Positions 41,484 to 60,308 of a stretch of 64,000 nt of DNA are shown here, piece by piece. A program made the position numbers and the translations under genes. The notes beneath the pieces are model-generated. The model was not told where the DNA came from. It searched no databases and saw only the letters and a program-made list of their open reading frames with translations. This stretch comes from Brachybacterium fresconis (lineage in GTDB: Bacteria > Actinomycetota > Actinomycetes > Actinomycetales > Dermabacteraceae): assembly GCF_017876515.1 (NCBI RefSeq), contig NZ_JAGIOC010000001.1, forward strand, positions 2,170,001 to 2,234,000. The letters are read 5' to 3'. Position 1 is the first letter of the stretch. Each line of letters opens with the position of its first letter.

Positions 41484-41508
41484 ACCGAACCACAGGCCGG
41501 CATCACCG

Positions 41509-41565
41509 CCGAGCTCTACGTTGCCGGGCCATCCCGGCCGTGTGGCAACAACACCGCAGAGCTCG
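41509..41565. repeat. 57-bp palindromic repeat, copy 4
   Basis: Nearly identical to copy 3; ends GCAGAGCTCG. The 25-base spacer between copies is conserved as well. Confidence 0.8.
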
Positions 41566-41590
41566 ACCGAGCCACAGGCCGGCATCACCG

Positions 41591-41647
41591 CCGAGCTCTA
41601 CGTTGCCGGGCCATCCCGGCTGCTTGGCAACGATTCCGCAGAGCTCG
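41591..41647. repeat. 57-bp palindromic repeat, copy 5
   Basis: Left half as copies 3-4; right half has CTTGGCAACGATTCC, closer to copy 1. Exactly 57 bp. Confidence 0.8.
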
Positions 41648-41649
41648 GC

Positions 41650-54726: not shown

Positions 54727-55935
54727 TCACTCCAGCAGCGCGGCGACCTGGTCGGCGAGCTCCGGAGCGAGCACGATGTCGTCGACCAGTCCGGAGCGGG
54801 CGGCGGCGATGACCGCCTCGGGTCGTCCGACGGCCGGGGCCGCGGCGATCACCCGTGCCCGTCGCAGCTGGTCCGCCCGCACTCCGATCACACGATCCTC
54901 GAGCGCCGAATGCCAGACCGCGCCCGTGCCGCCCAGCATGATGCCGCAGATCTCGGCGACGATCCCGGCCTCCTGGGCACGACGCTGCTCGTCGGCCCCC
55001 AGGCGGGCCCACAGGGTCGAGGCGCCGGCGGACCAGGCCCCGAGGGAGACCACGGCGACATCGAGGGCGTCGGCCGCGTCGAGCGTCGTGCGCACCTCCT
55101 CCATCGACCGCAGCGAGGCGGCGACCTGCGGCGAGTCGACCACGAGCGGGGTGGGCAGCGCCCAGACCCGGCCGCCGGACCGAGCGCCGAGGGTATGGAC
55201 CAGGGCCGAGGACTCGGCCGTCGAGTAGCCGGCGGCGCTCAGGGGGCCGACGAGCTGGACGATGTCGACCGCAGGAAGGACCTCGAGGGTGTCCGGCAGG
55301 TGCATGAGGGTGCGGGACCAGGCGACGCCGAGCCGCCCGCCCTCACGCAGCCGCGTCGTCAGCAGGTGGGCGGCCTGGCGGGCGATGGCCGCGCGCATCG
55401 ATTCGCCCGGCCGCGCGGCGGCGACCGTGACCGAGGAGATGCCGAGCTGCTGCGCGAGGGTGGCGTAGTCGCGGCCGGCGGCGCTGGGGTCGACGATCTG
55501 GATGCGCACGATGCCCTCGTCGCGCGCCTCGTCGAGCAGGCGGGCGACCTGGAAGCGGGACAGGGCGTGACGGCGACCGATCTCGACCTTGGAGAGCCCG
55601 TCGAGGAAGTACTCGCTCGCAAGGGTCGCCTTGAGCGAGCCGTCGCCGGAACCAGCGACCCCTCCCGAGGGCGCCCCATCCGATCGGCCCGCACCACCCG
55701 TCGACCCCGCGCCACCCGACGGAATCGCACCGCCCGACGGCCCCGCGCCGCCCGACGGATCCTCGCCGACGGCGCCCTCAGATGCGCTCGCACCCCCCTC
55801 GTCCGACCCTGGTTGACCCGAGAGCGCGCTCGCCGAGCTCGCGCGCCCGCGCGCGCCGTCCGCGTCGAGCGAGGTCGATCCGACCTGCCCATCGGGCCGG
55901 TCCTCGCGGCCGGGCATCGTGCCGTTGCGCGCCAT
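54727..55935 (-). CDS. SorC-family sugar-responsive regulator
   Basis: 402 residues from the ATG at 55935 (GGGAGGG upstream). The HTH is at about 105-145 (YFLDGLSKVEIGRRHALSRF, then QVARLLDEARDEGIV) and the rest is the SorC/DeoR-C sugar-phosphate sensor domain. The first ~95 residues are Gly/Ser/Ala/Pro-rich repeats absent from normal SorC proteins. Divergent from the ABC operon and in tandem with the polyol dehydrogenase; it should control both, through the TGAGC half-sites in between. Confidence 0.9.
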   Translation of the reverse strand: MARNGTMPGREDRPDGQVGSTSLDADGARGRASSASALSGQPGSDEGGASASEGAVGEDPSGGAGPSGGAIPSGGAGSTGGAGRSDGAPSGGVAGSGDGSLKATLASEYFLDGLSKVEIGRRHALSRFQVARLLDEARDEGIVRIQIVDPSAAGRDYATLAQQLGISSVTVAAARPGESMRAAIARQAAHLLTTRLREGGRLGVAWSRTLMHLPDTLEVLPAVDIVQLVGPLSAAGYSTAESSALVHTLGARSGGRVWALPTPLVVDSPQVAASLRSMEEVRTTLDAADALDVAVVSLGAWSAGASTLWARLGADEQRRAQEAGIVAEICGIMLGGTGAVWHSALEDRVIGVRADQLRRARVIAAAPAVGRPEAVIAAARSGLVDDIVLAPELADQVAALLE

Positions 55936-56263
55936 GGTCGTCCCTCCCCATCTCGTGCGCATCGCGAACATCTGCGACTCGCCTATTGCTCAACTGAGAG
56001 TATATGACTACGCTCACTCACAGGTGAGCACAAGCACTCATCACATGAGCGGGCTGCGATGTCGCCGCCCACCTCCCCCAGCGGGACCACCGTCAGCACC
56101 TGCGGCGGACCCGCCGGCATCCCGTCACCAGCGGCCACGACACCGGACCACCCCGAGATCCGTCGGACCCCCGCCGATCCCCACTGCGGCGCCGCGGTCC
56201 ATCTCCGGATCACGAGAGGGTCCCCGGACGTCGGGCTTCGAGCCGTTCAGAGGAGAACAGCGC
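55936..56263. other. Intergenic region between regulator and polyol ABC operon
   Basis: 328 bases. The regulator side is A/T-richer and holds the half-sites; the rest (56055-56263) is a GC-rich untranslated leader for the binding-protein gene, with AGGAG 8 bases before its ATG. Confidence 0.5.
55988..56050. promoter_or_regulatory. Clustered TGAGC/GCTCA half-sites (SorC operator candidate)
   Basis: GCTCA at 55988 and 56012, TGAGC at 56025 and 56046, and weaker halves at 55995 and 56036. GCTCACTCACAGGTGAGC at 56012-56029 is a clean inverted repeat. They lie between the divergent regulator and ABC operon. Confidence 0.6.
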
Positions 56264-57781
56264 ATGGGACACCCCAGACCACATCCGAGGCGGGCCTCGG
56301 GACCGGCCGACCCGGGCGCGGCCGCGCCGAATCCGTCGACCTCGAGCGCAGCCGCTCCCCCACCGTCCTCCTCGGTCCCGGCGACCCCCGACACGACTGC
56401 GCCCCCACCGGCGCGCCCACCCCGTTCCCTGCTGCGACCCCGTCGCCGCAGCGTGCTGGGCGCCGGACTGACCGCCGGGCTCGGGGCCACCGCCCTGGCC
56501 GGCTGCGGCTCCGGGGGAAGTGCCCGCGAATCGATCGTCGTCGCGATCGTGTCGAACCCGCAGATGCAGGACGCGATCAGCCTGATCGACGACTTCTCGC
56601 AGAATCACCCCGACATCGACGTGCAGTTCGTGTCGTTGCCGGAGAACGAGGCGCGCGCGAAAATCACCGCGTCGGTCGCCACCGGTGGCGGCGAGTTCGA
56701 CGTCGTGATGATCTCCAACTACGAGACCCCGCTGTGGGCGCCCAACGGCTGGCTCACCGACCTCGAGCCCTACATCGCGAAGACCGACGGCTACGAGCCG
56801 GAGGACTTCGTGCCGACGATCAAGGACGCCCTGACCGTGGACGGCTCGATGTACTCGGTCCCCTTCTACGGCGAGAGCGCGTTCCTGGTCTACCGCCAGG
56901 ACCTGTTCGACGAGGCCGGACTCGAGATGCCGAAGCGCCCCAGCTGGGAGGACCTGCGCTCCTTCGCCTCCACCCTGCACGACCCCGACAGCGGGATGAG
57001 CGGCATCGCCCTGCGCGGGCTGGCCGGCTGGGGCGAGAACATCGCGCCGATGAGCACCGTCCTGAACACCTACGGCGGCTGCTGGTTCGACATGGAATGG
57101 GCGCCGCAGCTGACGTCCCCCGAGGTGCGGGAGGCGATCTCGATGTACGTCGACACGCTGCGCTCCTATGGGCAGCCCGGCGCCGCGACCTCCGGCTTCG
57201 GCGAATGCCTGACCCACTTCAGCCAGGGCAACGCCGCCATGTGGTTCGACGCGTCCTCGATGGTCTCCGGGGTCGAGAACCCCGACTCCTCCACCGTGGT
57301 CGGCAAGACCGGCTACGCGCTGGGGCCGACGCAGCTGACCGAGTACGCCGGCTGGCTGTACTCCTGGGCCCTGGCCATTCCGCAGACCAGCGAGAAGAAG
57401 GACGCGGCCTGGGAGTTCATCGCCTGGATGACCCATCCGGACTACTTCCAGCTGGTGGGCGAGGAGATCGGCTGGGAGGCGCTGCCGCCCGGCTCGCGGC
57501 TGTCGACCTACGAGATCCCCGAGTACGCCGAACTCTCCAAGAACTACGCCGAGCCGACGTTGGACTCGATGGAGAACTCCACCCAGGAGAACTCGATGAC
57601 CGTCGAGGTCCCCTACGACGGTCTGCAGAACGTGGTGATCCCCGAGTTCCAGGACCTCGGCACCCGCGTCGGCCAGCAGTTCTCCGCCGCGATCGCCGGA
57701 CAGAAGAGCGTCGACGAGGCGCTGGAGCAGTCGCAGGGCTTCGCCGAATCGGTCGCCCGCACCTACGGATGGGAGGGCTGA
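56264..57781 (+). CDS. Sugar/polyol ABC substrate-binding lipoprotein
   Basis: 505 residues, ATG with AGGAG. A ~55-residue Pro/Ala/Ser-rich head precedes a twin-arginine signal (RRRSVLGAGL) ending in a lipobox (LAGC), so it is a Tat-exported lipoprotein. The body is a family-1 extracellular solute-binding protein of the sorbitol/mannitol (SmoE/MtlE) type: FVSLPENEARAKITASVATG, FDVVMISNYETPLWA, SVPFYGESAFLVYRQDLFDE. The stop is followed after three bases by a 53-bp minicistron leading to the first permease. No ATPase is encoded here, as in other actinobacteria that share one. Confidence 0.92.
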   Translation: MGHPRPHPRRASGPADPGAAAPNPSTSSAAAPPPSSSVPATPDTTAPPPARPPRSLLRPRRRSVLGAGLTAGLGATALAGCGSGGSARESIVVAIVSNPQMQDAISLIDDFSQNHPDIDVQFVSLPENEARAKITASVATGGGEFDVVMISNYETPLWAPNGWLTDLEPYIAKTDGYEPEDFVPTIKDALTVDGSMYSVPFYGESAFLVYRQDLFDEAGLEMPKRPSWEDLRSFASTLHDPDSGMSGIALRGLAGWGENIAPMSTVLNTYGGCWFDMEWAPQLTSPEVREAISMYVDTLRSYGQPGAATSGFGECLTHFSQGNAAMWFDASSMVSGVENPDSSTVVGKTGYALGPTQLTEYAGWLYSWALAIPQTSEKKDAAWEFIAWMTHPDYFQLVGEEIGWEALPPGSRLSTYEIPEYAELSKNYAEPTLDSMENSTQENSMTVEVPYDGLQNVVIPEFQDLGTRVGQQFSAAIAGQKSVDEALEQSQGFAESVARTYGWEG

Positions 57782-57784
57782 GCG

Positions 57785-57841
57785 ATGAGCATGTCCGCTC
57801 GAGGAACCGCGAGGAACGAGGGGGAGGGGACGGACCGATGA
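57785..57841 (+). CDS. 18-residue minicistron before first ABC permease (53-bp repeat unit)
   Basis: Reads MSMSARGTARNEGEGTDR and stops at TGA overlapping the permease ATG (ATGA). It carries the GGGGGAGGGGACGG region that would be the ribosome site for the permease. Start-to-start distance is 53 bases, the same as in the three-unit array downstream. Probably acts as a coupling leader if translated; the product itself may be meaningless. Confidence 0.4.
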   Translation: MSMSARGTARNEGEGTDR

Positions 57842-58818
57842 GCACAGCCACTGACACGCCCGTCGGCCGCGGACCGGATGCGCCGCGCACCCCGTCGGCC
57901 GACGCATCCCGCCGACGCGCCCCGCACGACGGGGAGTACTCGAAGGCCGAGGCCTGGCGGCGCCGGCTGCCCCTGATGCCCGCGTTCCTCTTCGTGGTCA
58001 TCTGCACCCAGATCCCCTTCCTGCTGACGATCTGGTACTCGCTGCGCTCCTGGAACCTGCTGCGCCCCGAGGGCGAGAAGTTCGTGGGCCTGCGCAACTA
58101 CCTCGACATCTTCGTCGACTCCACGTTCCGCACCGCGGCCCTGAACTCGATCCTCATCACCCTGGGCTGCGTGCTGGTCTCGCTGGTGTTCGGGCTCGTG
58201 CTGGCACTGCTGCTGGACCGGAAGTTCTTCGGCCGCGGATTCATCCGCACGCTGCTGATCACGCCGTTCCTCATCATGCCGGTGGCCGGGGCGATGCTCT
58301 GGTCGATCTCGATGTTCAACCCCTCCTACGGCCTGGTGAACTGGCTGATCTCGATCGTGGGCATCTCCCCGGTGGACTGGACCAGCCAGCTGCCGATGCT
58401 CTCGATCATCATCGCGCTGGTGTGGCAGTGGACGCCGTTCATGATGCTGCTGCTGTTGGCGGGGCTGCAGTCCCAGACCGGGGACGTGCTCGAGGCCGCC
58501 TCGATGGACGGGGCCGGGCCCTGGACCACCTTCGTGTACATCACCCTGCCCCACCTGCGGTTCTACCTCGAGCTGTCGGTGCTGCTGGGCGCGATCTACG
58601 TCGTCAACACCTTCGACCAGATCTACCTGATGACCGCAGGGGGCCCGGGCACCGCCAGTGCCAACCTGCCGTTCTACATCTATCAGCGCGCGTTCCTCGG
58701 CTTCGACATCGGGCAGTCCTCGGCGATGGGCGTGATCACCGTGATCGCCACGATCATCGTCGCCATGTTCGCGCTGCGGCTGATCTTCACGAGCATCAAC
58801 AGCAAGGAGCAGTCATGA
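57838..58818 (+). CDS. ABC sugar/polyol permease, MalF-like
   Basis: 326 residues, six membrane helices after a ~50-residue charged head. The EAA loop (EAASMDGAGPWTTFVYITLP) docks the shared ATPase. Similar to SmoF/MtlF polyol permeases. ATG overlaps the stop of a minicistron; its own stop overlaps the first of three further minicistrons. Middle gene of the transporter operon. Confidence 0.93.
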   Translation: MSTATDTPVGRGPDAPRTPSADASRRRAPHDGEYSKAEAWRRRLPLMPAFLFVVICTQIPFLLTIWYSLRSWNLLRPEGEKFVGLRNYLDIFVDSTFRTAALNSILITLGCVLVSLVFGLVLALLLDRKFFGRGFIRTLLITPFLIMPVAGAMLWSISMFNPSYGLVNWLISIVGISPVDWTSQLPMLSIIIALVWQWTPFMMLLLLAGLQSQTGDVLEAASMDGAGPWTTFVYITLPHLRFYLELSVLLGAIYVVNTFDQIYLMTAGGPGTASANLPFYIYQRAFLGFDIGQSSAMGVITVIATIIVAMFALRLIFTSINSKEQS

Positions 58819-58871
58819 GCGCCCTTCGTCGACGACCCGTGAGGAACGACCAGAAGGAGATGGAGTCATGA
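58815..58871 (+). CDS. 18-residue minicistron, unit 1
   Basis: Reads MSALRRRPVRNDQKEMES. Its ATG overlaps the permease stop and its TGA overlaps the ATG of unit 2. AAGGAG near its end is the ribosome site for unit 2. Confidence 0.4.
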   Translation: MSALRRRPVRNDQKEMES

Positions 58872-58924
58872 GCACCCTGTGTCGACGAGCTGTGCGGAAC
58901 CAGCGGAAGGAGACGGAGTCATGA
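58868..58924 (+). CDS. 18-residue minicistron, unit 2
   Basis: Reads MSTLCRRAVRNQRKETES. Coupled to units 1 and 3 by ATGA overlaps. Very similar to unit 3. Confidence 0.4.
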   Translation: MSTLCRRAVRNQRKETES

Positions 58925-58977
58925 GCATCCTTTGTCGACGAGCTGTGAGGAACGAACGGAAGGAGACGGAGTCATGA
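58921..58977 (+). CDS. 18-residue minicistron, unit 3
   Basis: Reads MSILCRRAVRNERKETES. Its TGA overlaps the ATG of the second permease (58974), for which its AAGGAG is the ribosome site. Confidence 0.4.
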   Translation: MSILCRRAVRNERKETES

Positions 58978-59861
58978 GCACAGTGACCGCCGACGCCCCG
59001 CGGACCTCCCCCACGGCGCCGCCCGCGATCCGGCGGCGTCGCCCCAAGGGACGCACCAGCGGACACGTGCTGACCGTCGTCGCCTGGGCCGCCGGCCTGC
59101 TGTTCTTCGCCCCGGTGGCGTGGATGGTGCTGACCAGCTTCAAGCAGGAGTCCCAGGCGGCCTCGAACCCGCCGACGTTCTTCTTCACCCCGACGCTGGA
59201 GCAGTACGCCTCGGTGATCGGTACCGCGGGCGCCGGGTCCTACCTGCTGAACTCGGTGATCGCCACCGCCTGCTCGACGCTGCTGGTGCTGGTGCTCGCC
59301 GTGCCCGCCGCCTACGCGGTGAGCATCCGACCGGTGAAGAGGACCCAGGACTTCCTGTTCTTCTTCATCTCCACCAAGATGCTGCCGATCGTCGCGGTGA
59401 TCATGCCGATCTACGTGATCGCCGGGCAGATCCAGCTGCTCGACAACATCCTCACGCTGATCATCCTGTACACGGCGATGAACCTGCCCATCGCGGTGTG
59501 GATGATGCGCTCGTTCTTCCTCGAGGTGCCCGGCGAGGTGCTCGAGGCCGCGTCGATCGACGGTGCCTCGCTGCTGCGCACCATGCGCACTGTGCTGCTG
59601 CCGATGGTGGCCCCGGGTGTCGCGGCGACCGCGCTGATCTGCGTGATCTTCGCGTGGAACGAGTTCTTCTTCGCCCTGAACCTCACGGCCGCGAACGCAG
59701 CGACGGTGCCGATCTTCCTGATGTCGACCATGACCTCGGAGGGGCTGTTCCTGGCGCGGCTGTCCGCCGCCTCGGTGCTGGCCTCGCTGCCCGTGGTCCT
59801 CGCCGGCTGGATCGCGCAGAAGCAGCTGGTGCGCGGCCTGTCCATGGGTGCGGTGAAGTAG
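58974..59861 (+). CDS. ABC sugar/polyol permease, MalG-like
   Basis: 295 residues, six membrane helices after a basic head (RRRRPKGRTSGH). The EAA loop is EAASIDGASLLRTMRTVLLP. Similar to SmoG/MtlG permeases, partner of the MalF-like gene just upstream. Translated from the last ribosome site of the minicistron array. Last gene of the operon. Confidence 0.93.
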   Translation: MSTVTADAPRTSPTAPPAIRRRRPKGRTSGHVLTVVAWAAGLLFFAPVAWMVLTSFKQESQAASNPPTFFFTPTLEQYASVIGTAGAGSYLLNSVIATACSTLLVLVLAVPAAYAVSIRPVKRTQDFLFFFISTKMLPIVAVIMPIYVIAGQIQLLDNILTLIILYTAMNLPIAVWMMRSFFLEVPGEVLEAASIDGASLLRTMRTVLLPMVAPGVAATALICVIFAWNEFFFALNLTAANAATVPIFLMSTMTSEGLFLARLSAASVLASLPVVLAGWIAQKQLVRGLSMGAVK

Positions 59862-59869
59862 GCCGACGG

Positions 59870-60000
59870 GCCGGGGCGGGCGGCCGGGCTGGCCGGGGCG
59901 GGCGGCCAGGCTGGCTGGCTGGGCGGCCGGAGCGGGCGGCCGGGCTGGCTGGCTGGGCGGCCGGGCTGGCCGGGGCGGGAGGCCGGCCGGCCGGGCGGCT
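59870..60000. repeat. GC-only tandem repeat (GGCCGGGCTGGC type)
   Basis: Irregular repeats of GGGCGGCCGGGCTGGCTGG, two of them forming a ~33-bp longer unit. Almost pure G and C with a few T/A; no reading frame of interest. Confidence 0.6.
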
Positions 60001-60020
60001 GCCCCACCCCGCCTCTGCCG

Positions 60021-60077
60021 CCGAGCTCTACGTTGTCGTTGCCAAGATCGCTGGTGGCAACAGCTACGCAGAGCTCG
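60021..60077. repeat. 57-bp palindromic repeat, copy 9
   Basis: CCGAGCTCTACG left, TACGCAGAGCTCG right, with GTTGCCAAG / GGTGGCAAC inner arms. Exactly 57 bp. Confidence 0.8.
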
Positions 60078-60186
60078 GCTCCAGGTAGGGACAGCAACGC
60101 AGAGCTCGGCGGTGGGTAGCGCCCGCAACGCAGAACTCGGCACGAGGAAGGGGCATCCGCCAGGGGCGCTCCGATCAGCCCGAGGC

Positions 60187-60289
60187 TCACCCGCTCAACC
60201 CCCGGGGCACCTCCCCCACTAGGCCCCGGGCACCTCACCCACTCAACACCCGGGGCACCTCGCACCTCAGTCCCGGGCACCTCACCTGC

Positions 60290-60308
<19 letters not shown>
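60187..60308. repeat. Tandem copies of the nadE stop-codon region
   Basis: On the minus strand GAGGTGCCCGGGGACTGA (the last codons and stop of nadE) is followed by about four degenerate copies at 22-25-base spacing, most keeping a TGA or TAG. A second example of a duplicated gene end. Confidence 0.7.

Follow-up and report, generated by a model that had tools for sequence, protein, structure and literature searches.

The window, that is, the entire stretch of 64,000 nucleotides of DNA analyzed here, includes an operon in which the genes for a solute-binding protein and two permeases are linked through short open reading frames. The solute-binding protein contains a Pfam SBP_bac_1 domain and both permeases belong to BPD_transp_1; the nearest named relatives of the operon are from Brachybacterium. 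A single 53-bp unit precedes the gene for the MalF-like permease (hereinafter, the SBP-F junction), and three such units precede the gene for the MalG-like permease (the F-G junction), each of the four being an 18-codon ORF. The minicistrons and their neighbors are joined via ATGA, where the TGA of one frame overlaps the ATG of the next; the step between units is accordingly 53 bp, the 57-bp ORF minus the four shared bases, and each series ends in a unit that shares bases with the ATG of a permease gene (57838 and 58974). A preliminary description of this DNA had claimed the positions and length of the units, their 18 codons and the ATGA overlaps, all of which are confirmed in the sequence. 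The locus comprises the following features:

55919-57781, plus strand: gene for the solute-binding protein, upstream of unit 1; open frame from the ORF list (start codon not settled), with SBP_bac_1 in 56297-57778
57785-57841, plus strand: minicistron 1 (SBP-F junction), 18 codons, MSMSARGTARNEGEGTDR; its TGA overlaps the ATG of the malF-like gene
57799-57830, plus strand: unit 1 core, differing from the start-type consensus at 4 positions
57823-57829, plus strand: GGAGGGG, ribosome-site-like, before the malF-like gene (read from the sequence)
57838-58818, plus strand: gene for the MalF/UgpA-like permease, 326 codons
58815-58871, plus strand: minicistron 2 (first F-G unit), MSALRRRPVRNDQKEMES; its ATG overlaps the TGA of the malF-like gene
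58829-58860, plus strand: minicistron 2 core, differing from the start-type consensus at 6 positions
58854-58859, plus strand: AAGGAG before minicistron 3 (read from the sequence)
58868-58924, plus strand: minicistron 3 (second F-G unit), MSTLCRRAVRNQRKETES
58882-58913, plus strand: minicistron 3 core, differing from the start-type consensus at 5 positions and from the degenerate pattern at 2
58907-58912, plus strand: AAGGAG before minicistron 4 (read from the sequence)
58921-58977, plus strand: minicistron 4 (third F-G unit), MSILCRRAVRNERKETES; its TGA overlaps the ATG of the malG-like gene
58935-58966, plus strand: minicistron 4 core, differing from the start-type consensus at 4 positions and from the degenerate pattern at 0
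58960-58965, plus strand: AAGGAG before the malG-like gene (read from the sequence)
58974-59861, plus strand: gene for the MalG-like permease, 295 codons

Tandem Repeats Finder detects the three-unit array with a score of 258 (3.2 copies, 86% matches). In all three F-G units, AAGGAG is located 8 nt upstream of the next ATG, and the SBP-F unit carries GGAGGGG as a ribosome-site-like motif. Other repeats lie nearby: G+C-rich degenerate tandem repeats 3' of the malG-like gene (59869-59999 and 60186-60307 of the window) and a second dispersed, partly palindromic repeat at 60015-60112 (also at 41506-41649), for which 38 matches were obtained in this genome at E 0.01, a number that includes the self match and both-strand hits of single places.

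When the three-unit array was compared to this genome using BLAST, no match other than itself was found below E 0.05; thus, the units are not obvious genomic repeats by this approach. Matches to the window units elsewhere, not found by BLAST, were obtained with a sequence model, R1, that was built from 13 units and itself trained on those of the window, among others; R1 matched all 38 genomes of the genus at E 0.1 (130 candidates scored per genome). Reading of 20 places matched by R1 revealed a shared 32-bp core, TCGACGNRCTGYGAGGNACGARCGGNAGGAGA, of which the window units carry diverged copies. At up to 2 mismatches, the core yielded 256 matches, forming 148 clusters in 26 of the 38 Brachybacterium genomes (0 to 33 matches per genome), compared to none for the reversed pattern in the same 38 genomes. 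Half of the clusters (74) contain a single core and the other 74 contain 2 to 7 copies spaced 53 to 59 bp apart. This genome has 10 core matches, two of them inside the window, where up to 3 mismatches also give 2 matches, against 0 in 100 dinucleotide shuffles; the remaining two window units, with 4 and 6 mismatches to the start-type consensus (see below), are missed by the pattern at 3 mismatches.

A 30-base version of the core at up to 3 mismatches was found in 16 of 27 Brachybacterium genomes and in 0 of 369 other genomes of the order, and the single match of its reversed control among all 396 genomes was in a member of the genus. A host range beyond the genus was considered given the weak R1 matches in 7 of 198 sampled genomes from outside it (E 8.4e-6 to 9.6e-4) and rejected: in view of the absence of the 30-base core from the 369 non-genus genomes, these matches were treated as chance. 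There were no exact matches to the 30-base core in viral contigs, no match in plasmids to a 75-bp query around unit 1, and no match to a curated Rfam family at the units themselves, either in the window stretch or in 10 unit-bearing loci.

By what precedes the first core, the 148 clusters were divided into 109 of the stop type and 28 of the start type, with ten unclassified and one with TAG before the core. The start-type clusters, found in 14 genomes, are located at gene-gene junctions, have no stop triplet before the core, and carry A or G at core position 7. A complete linked minicistron is present in 27 of the 28; in these, the start codon overlaps a TGA preceded by 33 to 396 open codons, and the minicistron's own TGA overlaps the next start codon. 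The minicistrons range from 17 to 43 codons, the much longer ones of L224 and L305 being open over 43 codons. By eye, a stretch resembling the second repeat of the window (60015-60112) lies inside the long minicistron of L224, with the ORF still open. Again by eye, the 28 clusters represent nine gene junctions, malF-malG included, and there is one more in the unclassified group. The other junctions with the core include a CCG/LUD_dom pair, a BPD_transp_1 pair and an ABC_tran/BPD_transp_2 pair, and involve also a peptidase M1 gene, a SAICAR synthetase gene and a gene that follows an SNF2-type helicase.

The start-type copies show signs of being translated. They obey a frame rule: the core spacing is 2 modulo 3 in 11 of 13 start-type pairs, compared to 32 of 85 stop-type pairs, the exceptions being L236, with two cores inside one 37-codon ORF, and L270, where the core is read in another frame. 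Furthermore, core position 26 is G or A in all 37 start-type sequences and T or C in 100 of the 101 stop-type sequences; a T at this position would create UAG in the minicistron frame. The start-type cores are also devoid of the pairs 7-27 and 8-26, an absence that would favor an accessible ribosome site. Structured RNA was considered and rejected both for the start-type units, for which RNAalifold on 13 units gave 7 pairs, one with a compensatory change, at a consensus energy of -2.86, and for the units of the window, two stretches of which fold no better than shuffles (z 0.84 and 1.20). The window minicistrons are probably translated.

In the 109 stop-type clusters, a TGA immediately precedes the first core. 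In 106 of the 109, the frame ending in this TGA is open for 60 codons or more, although this test is weak because the shifted frames are open as well, in 79 and 19 cases. In this genome, four stop-type clusters lie behind genes, three of them the genes for ribosomal proteins L1, L31 and L9. The stop codon and the codon preceding it pair with bases 3' of the core, forming a hairpin. Among 102 non-redundant sites (of 106 usable out of the 109), the -5/+37 position is a Watson-Crick pair in 97, compared to 36.0 with shuffled right arms (sd 4.3, maximum 49, 500 shuffles), and shows all four pair types; in other words, the outer arm of the hairpin matches the last codon of the gene at these 97 sites. 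The inner positions covary as well (8-26: AT 42, GC 33, GT 22; 12-22: CG 84, TA 15). Pairing stops after -6, with -7/+39 paired in 11 of the 102 sites, under the shuffled value of 27.1. The mean folding z is -4.21 for 101 stop-type sequences versus -1.11 for 37 start-type sequences; for one stop-type stretch behind rplA, it is -2.16. The left and right copies of the target disagree at -5 in 11 cases, and in 10 of these the arm agrees with the left copy. At L252 and L268, two stop-type sites with GGGTGA, the arm is unadjusted, which disfavors obligatory templating.

The largest array, L338 (G028:C48, 194171-194538), consists of seven 56-bp stop-type units behind the stop codon of a gene whose product ends in NRILGKA. 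By eye, the final copy of the core is only half present in some stop-type arrays (L170, L171 and L172), as might result from a deletion or from copying that stopped early. Near one array-bearing L31 gene, there is a match to the L31-Actinobacteria ribosomal protein leader (E 2.6e-8; L168:1307-1350, minus strand).

The locus behind rplA allows a direct comparison of filled and empty sites. The gene is present in 36 genomes, and of the 30 loci read, 6 are filled with 2 or 3 cores, one (G013) contains a truncated copy recognized by eye, and in 23 the pattern, allowing up to 4 mismatches, detects no core. When filled and empty loci are compared, GGCCTGA(TC), 7-9 bp, is present on both sides of the insert, with the core, the inverted arm and the spacer in between. 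The core variants at rplA differ between lineages, which suggests repeated insertion at this site. More generally, a 6-base direct repeat of the target after the last core is perfect in 58 of 104 stop-type arrays, compared to 18.8 in shuffles; it is imperfect in the other 46, which counts against the interpretation proposed below. Because orthologous sites are found both empty and filled, the element inserts and expands; the genomes compared are species representatives, so that these data speak to differences between species rather than to present mobility.

The window operon itself also differs in unit number between relatives. The MalG-like protein is encoded in 17 of the 38 genomes of the genus (E 1e-60 or better). 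Among these, the F-G junction has no unit in 10, where the TGA of the malF-like gene directly overlaps the ATG of the malG-like gene, one unit in 6, and three units in this genome. Thus, the suggestion of the preliminary description that the unit number could vary without breaking the chain holds: there are 0, 1 or 3 F-G units, with the overlaps kept. The SBP-F junction has one unit in 6 of the 17 genomes and none in 11; the sequences of these units diverge strongly, and two of them have an extra 24 and 51 nt with the linkage kept. Unit lengths other than 53 bp thus far include 50, 56, 59, 77, 104, 110 and 128 bp, again with start/stop overlaps retained. In a tree of the two permeases, the unit states are scattered; the support is weak (9 of 16 inner branches are open), so that gains and losses are not countable.

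Collectively, these observations indicate, with a probability of roughly 0.8, that the units are start-type copies of a short interspersed Brachybacterium repeat (a 32-bp core in a unit usually of 53-56 bp) that are tolerated because coupling is kept and that have a hairpin form at gene ends. The window minicistrons look like residents, diverged start-type copies of a genus-wide repeat, rather than a device of this operon, even if the divergence of their cores, at 4 to 6 of the 32 positions of the start-type consensus, counts against this reading. The sequence, the dispersal, the empty and filled sites, the partial direct repeats, the frame rule and the hairpin covariation are seen in the data, whereas translation and re-initiation, the manner of insertion, and any effect on expression are inferred. 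Under the proposed mechanism, the element would insert at a gene boundary containing a TGA, duplicating the boundary sequence, and in places would expand in tandem. Where the TGA of a gene overlaps the next ATG, the insert would become a complete small ORF: a ribosome ending the upstream gene would restart on the unit, translate about 18 codons, terminate at a TGA that shares bases with the following start codon, next to the ribosome site carried by the unit, and move onward into the next gene. The insert would then be tolerated, and selection for translation of the operon would maintain the frame of the unit; at gene ends, the same core would fold into the hairpin that includes the stop codon and the last codon.

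The preliminary description had proposed a permease-ratio device special to this operon or, alternatively, a leader-peptide array. As a purpose-built device, the minicistrons would, by their number, set how many ribosomes reach MalG relative to MalF; the variation of that number (0, 1 or 3) at the F-G junction, the potential of each unit to lose some ribosomes and the location of several start-type junctions between ABC transporter genes are all compatible with this idea. However, the same core is found at about nine other junctions, including those between unrelated genes, and with greater frequency after the stop codons of genes, ribosomal protein genes among them, and the F-G unit is missing in 10 of the 17 operon-bearing genomes; we therefore consider such a device unlikely, although regulatory (tuning) side effects of the units are possible. 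The leader-peptide array fares no better, given the same occurrence of the core at other junctions and, more often, behind stop codons such as those of the L1, L31 and L9 genes. A function of the 18-residue peptides themselves, as small proteins or nascent-chain sensors, could be suspected from the recurrence, noted by eye, of MSTxxRRTARNEREE-like peptides across start-type units. This likeness, however, follows from the shared DNA core; the SBP-F peptides are very different (with STK or SDDL runs) although the overlaps are still kept, and L270 reads the core in another frame, all of which makes peptide function very unlikely.

Simple local tandem duplication (minisatellite slippage), with no mobile element involved, would agree with the similarity of the copies at malF-malG and with the whole-unit differences in their number. 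It would account for the step from one to three copies but not for the first copy, and copies of the core are spread over many unrelated genes in 26 genomes, with orthologous sites empty or filled; on this evidence, slippage as the sole cause is very unlikely.

Returning to the interspersed repeat as the preferred explanation, a more specific and only tentative version of it, which we regard as possible rather than likely, holds that a single mobile 32-bp core occupies two habitats, serving as a translated relay at start codons and forming a hairpin at stop codons, with the outer arm rewritten for each target. If so, insertion would copy the target once inverted and once direct, or else would pick targets by base pairing; we know of no insertion chemistry of either kind for repeats this small. 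A plainer account of the same arm data is strong selection that keeps the stem length constant. Either way, the match between arm and target gives a concrete lead on the insertion of such repeats or on the selection acting on them.

The start-type form recalls the mycobacterial interspersed repetitive units (MIRU), reportedly described by Supply et al. in 1997. In the literature, MIRU are 40-100 bp dispersed repeats that are used for typing tuberculosis isolates and whose function is described as not well understood (PMC2734929); they are apparently mobile, insert at start codons and couple at -4 nt according to a 2025 review (PMC12548453). Units of 77 and 53 bp are reported between senX3 and regX3 (PMC4213456) and in the ETR-D/MIRU04 spacer (PMC2453075). 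MIRU occur in many mycobacteria (PMC12548453), those of senX3-regX3 being restricted to M. leprae and the M. tuberculosis complex (PMC4213456). Judged by titles and the beginnings of abstracts, the literature matches listed included nothing on Brachybacterium repeats and no such units outside mycobacteria. Compared by description, with no MIRU letters aligned, the Brachybacterium repeat resembles MIRU in being short, scattered and in part tandem (256 cores in 148 clusters, 53-59 bp spacing); in forming, by sequence, a small ORF that overlaps its neighbor by -4 nt (the four window units and 27 of 28 start-type clusters); in its insertion at start codons, malF-malG being empty in 10 and filled in 7 of 17 genomes; and in the presence of 53-bp units and one 77-bp unit. 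It differs in its host, which is not a mycobacterium, and in the commoner stop-codon hairpin form with an arm matching the last codon of the gene. A MIRU-like mobile repeat, with translation and re-initiation as predicted from the sequence, is the best reading; on paper, the element works like MIRU, and it is not said to be one. A short ORF can bring a ribosome to the next start codon via overlap (PMC12548453); in Brachybacterium, unlike in that general case, the ORF comes from a dispersed repeat and occurs one to three in a row. A MIRU-type working element outside Mycobacterium, empty or filled between species, offers a tractable test of spread and translation.

The stop-type form recalls REP/BIME, described in the sources as short dispersed hairpins downstream of genes, with GTAG and CGTC families (PMC3733652, PMC12306157); ribosome stalling has been reported for REPs located within 15 nt of a stop codon (PMC12306157). 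Like these, the Brachybacterium element is a short palindrome downstream of coding regions (109 of 148 clusters at TGA, with the mean folding z of -4.21 given above). Unlike REPs as so described, it has no conserved GTAG/CGTC at the foot of the hairpin (stop-type consensus of 101 sequences, 48 bases, by eye), and the RAYT-type transposase family (Y1_Tnp, PF01797), the only mobilizer searched for, is absent from the 38 Brachybacterium genomes (5 of 14 control genomes were positive). Further differences are that the arrays run in the same direction with a 53-58 bp step, the stop codon lies within the stem, and there is an ORF-bearing junction form. Membership in the MIRU or REP family is not claimed for the Brachybacterium repeat; rather, its stop-codon form unites the MIRU and REP ideas in one element.
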